Positions 8,027 through 23,884 of a DNA stretch of 59,922 nucleotides are shown here, in pieces. Position numbers and translations under genes: made by a program. The notes below the pieces were generated by a model that worked only from the letters and a program-made list of their open reading frames with translations, searched no databases and was not told the DNA's origin. The stretch lies in NCBI GenBank assembly GCA_016866335.1, contig VGMT01000014.1, forward strand, positions 1-59,922, in the 5' to 3' direction. The DNA comes from Bacteroidota bacterium (GTDB taxonomy: Bacteria > Bacteroidota > Bacteroidia > CAIKAF01). The first letter of the stretch is position 1. Each line of letters begins with the position of its first letter.

Positions 8027-8425
8027 ATGTCAGGTTCTGTAAACCGAGTAATTTTAGTTGGCAATTTGGGTAAAGACCCAGAGGTTCGTGAATTCCCCGA
8101 TGGAACCAAACAAGCAAAGGTATCTTTAGCAACCTCCGAGTCGTACAAAAACAAAAACGGGGAACCCGTGGAAAGCACGGAGTGGCACAACCTTGTTTTT
8201 CGACGCAGGCTGGCCGAAATTGTCCAGCTTTACCTTAAAAAAGGGCACAAAATCTATGTAGAAGGACGAATTAAATCGCGTTCTTGGGAACAAGACGGGC
8301 AAAAAAGATACACCACCGAGATTGAAGTGGACCAGCTTACCATGCTTGAAAGCAAAAAAACGGACAGCTACAGCCAAGGCACTCCTCCGTCAGGATCGCC
8401 TACCGAGCACGATGTTCCGATTTGA
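8027..8425 (+). CDS. ssb: Single-stranded DNA-binding protein
   Basis: SSB, which binds single-stranded DNA during replication and repair. The OB fold is clear: MSGSVNRVILVGNLGKDPEVRE, then STEWHNLVF, YLKKGHKIYVEGRIKSRSWEQDGQKRYTTEIEVDQLTML. The protein is short (132 aa) with a brief linker. The tail ends EHDVPI instead of the common DDDIPF; the acidic-hydrophobic pattern that binds partner proteins is kept only in part. The ssb-gldE order is conserved in gliding Bacteroidota. Confidence 0.95.
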   Translation: MSGSVNRVILVGNLGKDPEVREFPDGTKQAKVSLATSESYKNKNGEPVESTEWHNLVFRRRLAEIVQLYLKKGHKIYVEGRIKSRSWEQDGQKRYTTEIEVDQLTMLESKKTDSYSQGTPPSGSPTEHDVPI

Positions 8426-8443: not shown

Positions 8444-10330
8444 TTGGAAGACCCTTTAAGTTACAGCAGCTTGCCCCTGGAAACCGCACTGGTTCTCCTG
8501 CCCCTACTTATTGTTTCTGGTTTAATTTCAGCCTCTGAAGTTGCCTTTTTTGGGGCCTCTCCCAAAACCATGGAAGAACTTGAGTTTAGTCATCCCGCAG
8601 CCTTTAAAAAAGCTAGCCACCTATTGGCGCACCCAAACCGCTTGCTGGCAACCATCTTAATTGCGAACAACTTTACCAACATCTTAATCGTATTAATTGC
8701 TTCTTTAACCAGTTCTGGCTTGCCGTTTATGTCGGATTGGCCCGCCTGGTTGCAATTTGCCTTTCAAGCACTTGGCGTCACCACCATAATCTTGATTTTT
8801 GGCGAAATATTGCCTAAAATTTTAGCAACCCATCAATCCAAAGGGATTATTGTACTTATGTCAACCCCATTAAGCATTGCCGGAGTAGTTACGCGCCCTT
8901 TGGGTAGCCTTCTCCTATTGAGCGGCCGTCTCATTACGGGGAAAGCAACAAAAGGGAACCAAACCTTAAGCAACGAAGAGCTTTCGGCAGTGATAGACAT
9001 GGCTGAAGGAGTTGAAATATCAGACGAAGAACGTAAAATCTGGAAGGGCATCGTTGAATTTGGGAAAATTACCAGCAGCGAAACCATGAAACCCCGAACC
9101 GACATTGTGGGAATCGAACTAAAAAAATCCTTCAAACAGGTTTTAGATGTGATTCTTCGCAGCGGCTATTCCCGGATTCCTGTTTACAATGGTTCCTTAG
9201 ACCAGGTAACGGGCATTTTGTATGTAAAAGACTTAATCCCCTTTCTGTCGGAAGACGCCCAATTCAATTGGAACCGCCTTGTACGTAAGCCGTTTTTTGT
9301 GCCAGAAAACAAACCCATCGATGACCTTTTAAAGGAATTTCAATTAAAAAAGATGCACATGGCTATTGTGGTAGATGAGTACGGAGGTTGTTCCGGATTA
9401 ATCACCCTTGAGGACATCATTGAAGAGATTGTAGGAGAAATAAACGATGAATTCGACGATGAAGAAATCGTCTATTCTAAGTTAGACGACCACACCTTTG
9501 TATTCGAAGCCAAAACCACTCTCATTCAATTGTGCCGAATTGTAGACATCCCCTTTGAATCACTTGGGCCTGCGGCAGAAGAAGCCGATACCATCGCAGG
9601 CTTGCTTCTTCAATTGCACCAAAAACTTCCAGCCAAAGGCATCAAAATCGATACCCCAAACATCGAATACTGCGTAGAATCGGCCGACCAACGCAGAATA
9701 AAACGGGTTAAGGTTACCCTAAAAAAGAGGCATGATTTCAAATCCGGAATAGCGCCTTCCTTTTTAGCCTGTATTCTTGGCCTTTCATTGATTGGCTGCA
9801 ATACAGACGTACCACAACCCAAACCCATGGGCTACCCCCTTATTGAACTGCCAAGCCAATCTTCTAAGACCTTGCAGTTGCAAGCTCCCTTTCAATTTGA
9901 AATAGCTCAGGTTGCCAGCATCCGTCCTGCTACCGAACGCCCCGAATTTCCAGGCGGAATCTGGTTAAACATTGATTATCCCGATTTTCGCAGCACCATT
10001 TATTTGACCTACCTGCCTGTGAATAAAAACTTGGCTGAATTGTTGGACGAGGCCAACCAACAGGTTTACAAAGGCCATGTAACCATGGCGGAAGGCATAG
10101 AAGAACAAACTATTTCTGATTCAAAAAGAAAGGTCTATGGACGCATTTACCACCTTGAAGGTCCGGTGGCAACCCCCGTTCAATTTTACTTGACCGACTC
10201 CTCCCAACATTTTGTTCGTGGTAGCCTTTACTTTAATTATGCCGCAAATTACGACAGCATCGCTCCTATACTTACCTATTTAAACCAAGACATCGAGCGA
10301 ATGGCACAAAGCTTAGCTTGGAAACCCTAA
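8444..10330 (+). CDS. gldE: GldE-GldD fusion (gliding motility/T9SS-associated)
   Basis: A 628-aa protein joining two proteins that are normally separate neighbours. Residues about 10-165 are the DUF21/CNNM membrane domain; about 205-330 is a CBS pair (TGILYVKDLIPFL, IVVDEYGGCSGLITLEDIIEEIVGEI); about 342-428 is a CorC/HlyC-type domain. From about 430 a basic stretch leads into a hydrophobic segment and lipobox LSLIGC (C452), then a GldD-like periplasmic domain (MGYPLIELP, RPEFPGGIWLNIDYP). GldD is normally a separate lipoprotein. No stop and no ATG, GTG or TTG in frame near the junction separates the halves. The start is TTG at 8444, because a TAA stands five codons upstream. Both proteins are needed for gliding and T9SS function in Flavobacterium johnsoniae. 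Confidence 0.85.
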   Translation: MEDPLSYSSLPLETALVLLPLLIVSGLISASEVAFFGASPKTMEELEFSHPAAFKKASHLLAHPNRLLATILIANNFTNILIVLIASLTSSGLPFMSDWPAWLQFAFQALGVTTIILIFGEILPKILATHQSKGIIVLMSTPLSIAGVVTRPLGSLLLLSGRLITGKATKGNQTLSNEELSAVIDMAEGVEISDEERKIWKGIVEFGKITSSETMKPRTDIVGIELKKSFKQVLDVILRSGYSRIPVYNGSLDQVTGILYVKDLIPFLSEDAQFNWNRLVRKPFFVPENKPIDDLLKEFQLKKMHMAIVVDEYGGCSGLITLEDIIEEIVGEINDEFDDEEIVYSKLDDHTFVFEAKTTLIQLCRIVDIPFESLGPAAEEADTIAGLLLQLHQKLPAKGIKIDTPNIEYCVESADQRRIKRVKVTLKKRHDFKSGIAPSFLACILGLSLIGCNTDVPQPKPMGYPLIELPSQSSKTLQLQAPFQFEIAQVASIRPATERPEFPGGIWLNIDYPDFRSTIYLTYLPVNKNLAELLDEANQQVYKGHVTMAEGIEEQTISDSKRKVYGRIYHLEGPVATPVQFYLTDSSQHFVRGSLYFNYAANYDSIAPILTYLNQDIERMAQSLAWKP

Positions 10331-23663: not shown

Positions 23664-23735
23664 TAGCCCCAACAGGACTCGAACCTGTATCTAAAGTTTA
23701 GGAAACTTTCGTTCTATCCCTTGAACTATGGGGCC
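23664..23735 (-). tRNA. tRNA-Arg (anticodon CCT)
   Basis: A full cloverleaf: acceptor GGCCCCA with TGGGGCT, D-stem GTTC/GAAC, anticodon stem AAAGT/ACTTT enclosing loop TTCCTAA (anticodon CCT, decodes AGG) and T-stem ACAGG/CCTGT with loop TTCGAGT. The discriminator is A and CCA is not encoded. Confidence 0.95.
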
Positions 23736-23800: not shown

Positions 23801-23884
23801 GCCCGGGTGGCGGAACTGGTAGACGCGCCGGACTCAAAATCCGGTGGTAGCAATACCGTGGGGGTTCGATTCCCTTCCCGGGCA
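23801..23884 (+). tRNA. tRNA-Leu (anticodon CAA)
   Basis: A type II tRNA with a long variable arm (TGGTAGCAATACCGT). The acceptor GCCCGGG pairs with CCCGGGC, and the anticodon stem CCGGA/TCCGG encloses CTCAAAA (anticodon CAA, decodes TTG). The T-arm has GGTTCGATTCC. CCA is not encoded. Confidence 0.96.

Follow-up and report, generated by a model that had tools for sequence, protein, structure and literature searches.

In Bacteroidota such as Flavobacterium johnsoniae, gldE and gldD are reportedly separate genes. In Bradyrhizobium japonicum, the cytochrome b/c1 precursor FbcH links a polytopic membrane protein, whose end is cytoplasmic, to an exported protein; the signal peptide that joins them is internal and is cleaved. 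In CNNM/CorC transporters, the C-terminal domains are cytoplasmic. Here we describe a locus on a 59,922-nucleotide stretch of a Bacteroidota genome (contig VGMT01000014.1, the window) in which GldE and GldD are encoded as one polypeptide.

The fusion contains the same families in the same order as the separate genes and the same lipobox, but it has no stop codon, start codon or N-terminal signal peptide between the two parts. FbcH, where a membrane protein is likewise joined to an exported part by way of an internal signal peptide, is the nearest precedent known to us. However, FbcH is cleaved by ordinary signal peptidase, whereas the internal site of GldE-GldD is a lipobox and would need Lgt and LspA. 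The CNNM/CorC transporters of known structure (7m1t, 7m1u and 4hg0) differ from the fusion in having no attached lipoprotein domain. Both parts belong to known families, while neither a GldE-GldD fusion with an internal lipobox nor its recurrence or the retention of the lipobox was found described in the open-access literature.

Results

A single stop-free frame of 628 amino acids with a TTG start (8444-10330, forward strand) spans GldE and then GldD. The NCBIfam model for GldE (TIGR03520) matched residues 21-426 over profile positions 4-407 of 408 with 455.6 bits (curated cutoff 376.05), and that for GldD (TIGR03512) matched residues 444-627 over positions 2-182 of 182 with 186.3 bits (curated cutoff 120), which confirms the sequence-only reading that both proteins share one frame. 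Pfam domains were found in the order CNNM, CBS, CorC_HlyC and GldD_lipo, the first three being those of GldE in their proper order. The CNNM transmembrane domain comprises residues 18-190 (8495-9013; PF01595, E 3e-31), the CBS domain residues 281-330 (9284-9433; PF00571), with CBS-pair structures matching residues ~210-335, and the cytoplasmic CorC_HlyC domain at the end of GldE residues 346-427 (9479-9724; PF03471). Over the membrane, CBS and CorC domains the GldE part aligned with 7m1t, 7m1u and 4hg0, and by this alignment it is of the CNNM/CorC kind. Mature GldD corresponds to residues 452-628 and the stop codon (9797-10330; TIGR03512, PF25593). The usual state of GldD, a gene of its own with a start codon and an N-terminal signal peptide (features that lie outside the TIGR03512 model), was not found in the window, and judged from the reading frame the feature is a GldD domain and not a free-standing gldD gene. 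The genome encodes one GldD and one true GldE; a second intact gldD or gldE was rejected, as the extra match was a CorC-like paralogue scoring below the GldE cutoff. Directly upstream of the fused gene lies ssb (8027-8425, forward strand; PF00436). Rfam matched nothing in the window except two tRNAs, encoded divergently at 23664-23735 (reverse strand) and 23801-23884 (forward strand).

Translation of the GldE part starts at TTG (8444-8446), followed by a Glu codon, a start conserved across the gldE genes of Bacteroidia. Among 108 assignable Bacteroidia loci, 99 had TTG followed by Asp or Glu, five ATG and four GTG, a count that may be biased because starts were assigned with the D/E motif. Within gldE just one Leu codon in about five is TTG, and the conserved rare start may keep GldE levels low. 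At the other end of the protein, the model of the GldD domain (177 aa, pLDDT 88.6) resembled Mog1/PsbP-like proteins, including DcrB and LpqN, at about 10% identity or less. The best Foldseek match was PsbP (E 1.1e-4), and superposition with VIA gave Z 11.4 for Mog1p (rmsd 4.1, 149 aligned), Z 10.0 for cyanobacterial PsbP (rmsd 3.7, 139 aligned) and Z 8.7 for DcrB (rmsd 3.2, 113 aligned). This candidate fold is a lead on GldD in general and carries no functional claim.

At the junction, about 25 residues separate the last CorC_HlyC strand (residues 419-426 in the model) from C452. They form a basic, hydrophilic and fast-evolving linker devoid of an in-frame start (residues 428-436, 9725-9751; pLDDT <50 at residues 430-438), so that the n-region charge is not lost in this species, and a hydrophobic segment corresponding to the former signal-peptide h-region (residues 437-451, 9752-9796), which is a predicted internal membrane helix (residues 438-447 in the model). 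The segment runs into the motif LIGC (residues 449-452, 9788-9799, with the C452 codon at 9797-9799), which includes the invariant Cys and fits the lipobox pattern [LV][ASTVI][GAS]C (PMC8048626). With the lipobox Cys as far in as residue 452 of 628, the primary product has no N-terminal signal peptide of the kind found in bacterial lipoproteins; the basic segment and lipobox of GldD are indeed internal, as first read. No in-frame ATG, GTG or TTG was present in the window from 45 to 14 codons before C452. The earlier statement that such codons are missing near the junction therefore stands for this interval but not closer to the Cys, as a TTG at 9788-9790, three codons ahead of C452, is the sole in-frame start codon within 45 codons; from its position it is too near for a signal peptide to begin there. 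An ATG at 9732 is out of frame and runs into a stop after six codons.

Relatives were compared for a separate gldD, and each of the five further species sampled from the genus contained the same single fused frame (633-654 aa, with 46-72% identity in the GldD part). The fused frame was thus present in six of six sampled species over a large divergence. In close pairs within the genus, differences were biased to third positions in both the GldE and the GldD half, a pattern that purifying selection would produce; the linker changed fast and showed weak codon periodicity. Based on this conservation, GldE-GldD is a genuine, stable gene fusion.

To survey the fusion more widely, a profile of the fused proteins was run over 396 Bacteroidia genomes, 378 of which contain GldD. 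At least 25 stop-free frames spanning GldE and GldD were obtained, a lower bound, from 14 genera in seven families. Where the genes are separate, gldE lay directly upstream of gldD in the loci examined, and gldD usually started at its own ATG, often in an ATGA overlap with the gldE stop, in agreement with the view that the two are normally separate neighbours. In a few genomes (L145, L146, L147) gldE and gldD share a frame that is interrupted by one stop codon, and a single mutation would fuse them, so that frameshift and stop loss are both possible routes.

On a tree of GldE and GldD (linker left out; quick method with SH-aLRT only), nine changes of the fused label are needed, and strongly supported branches force every one of them. 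The fused state therefore arose repeatedly, and a single origin was rejected. The simplest reading of the sequence tree is eight gains and one reversal, although change counts alone cannot separate gain from loss. Fused and separate species occur side by side within genus g9 and within genus g15. One species within the fused f61 clade (L056) has separate genes that overlap by ATGA and may have reversed the fusion.

Fused and separate genes were then compared at the junction. In an alignment of 21 fused proteins that was not anchored on the Cys, the lipobox Cys column was invariant; all 24 fused proteins examined kept the Cys and had G, A or S at -1. The strict lipobox pattern was similarly frequent in fused proteins (9/24) and separate GldD (12/48). 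An ATG between -45 and -14 from the Cys was present in 7/24 fused loci versus 41/48 separate ones, and a strictly conserved internal start was not found across the fused loci. Acidic residues were found among the five positions just ahead of the hydrophobic core in 17/24 fused versus 3/48 separate proteins, as is expected if this stretch has ceased to act as the basic N-terminus of a separate signal peptide. Net n-region charge was discarded as a discriminator in favour of these acidic residues, being weaker when separate genes were counted from ATG only and not significant on independent pairs. The hydrophobic core was longer in fused proteins, but this measure also counts uncharged linker residues and was not relied on. 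Taken together, retention of the Cys and the -1 residue, loss of the start and the acidic residues suggest that the segment, no longer a free N-terminus, still serves as a lipoprotein processing site.

Discussion

The course of events that we consider likely is that one chain is made and that C452 is then lipidated by Lgt and probably cut by LspA, which would release GldD. GldE and GldD would be translated as a single chain from the TTG start, the CNNM helices would insert in the inner membrane and the CBS/CorC region would stay in the cytoplasm. As CNNM/CorC C-terminal domains are cytoplasmic, the hydrophobic segment would cross outward, placing GldD in the periplasm: the former signal peptide would insert N-in/C-out as an extra helix. 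The topology proposed in the sequence-only reading thus holds up by analogy with CNNM/CorC relatives. Lgt would lipidate C452 and LspA would most likely cleave before it, yielding the mature lipoprotein GldD and leaving GldE with one additional membrane helix at its C-terminus. We infer lipidation, cleavage and 1:1 synthesis of the two parts. An LspA gene reaching its cutoff is present in the genome, as is an Lgt-like gene with a weak score, matched in two pieces of one frame that are both below cutoff. SprA and GldJ-like proteins are also encoded, and the machinery that GldD serves appears to be kept. The basic linker of the window species, the low frequency of the strict lipobox pattern among fused proteins and the low Lgt score count against this course of events, though the pattern is about as infrequent in separate GldD.

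Alternatively, the fusion might stay intact, with the extra helix holding GldD at the inner membrane in a permanent GldE-GldD complex, whether or not C452 is lipidated. This would agree with the single frame, the internal hydrophobic helix and the recurrence of the fusion, which is expected for obligate partners, but we regard it as unlikely: the Cys and the small -1 residue are kept in every one of the fused proteins compared, across several independent lineages, and tethering alone would not need a small residue at -1, though Lgt recognition might. Between the two fates first envisaged for GldD, held in place by fusion or cleaved internally, this retention favours lipidation and cleavage without proving either.

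It is more doubtful that GldD is made also, or only, from an internal start, either a GTG in the context KRVK-GTG or a non-standard codon, in which case two products would lie behind what looks like a fusion. GTG is enriched in some fused relatives about 30 codons before the Cys at a KRVKV motif (15 of 31 Val codons, where their codon usage predicts 8.3; P 0.006, uncorrected for the tree), but a phylogenetic sign test on independent pairs was not significant (median p 0.5). In the genus, the other five species carry a GTG in frame 28-29 codons ahead of the Cys; this would make internal initiation possible for those relatives and not for the window species, where the motif valine is encoded by GTT and no usable start exists. 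The ATG seen in 7 of the 24 fused loci could likewise serve as a start; against this, such a start is not conserved within fused genera, acidic residues are frequent ahead of the hydrophobic core in fused proteins, and GldE would still be without a stop of its own. A sequencing or assembly artefact at the junction, raised in the sequence-only reading and conceivable for an assembly in 62 contigs, is barely credible and is excluded for the genus, as the fused frame is repeated in its five other sampled species and in 19 genomes of other genera.

Returning to maturation at the internal lipobox, the evidence tips slightly towards a broader proposal: that a GldE-GldD polyprotein has evolved repeatedly in Bacteroidia, and that its lipoprotein half, which follows a polytopic membrane protein, undergoes maturation at an internal lipobox. 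Maturation of the lipoprotein would here amount to polyprotein processing and would enforce equal synthesis of both partners. The fusion is a naturally occurring case in which to test whether a lipobox away from the protein N-terminus is accepted by Lgt and LspA. Its recurrence is good evidence that GldE and GldD are direct partners, and such a partnership would assign GldE, a protein of poorly defined role, to the gliding/type IX secretion machinery.
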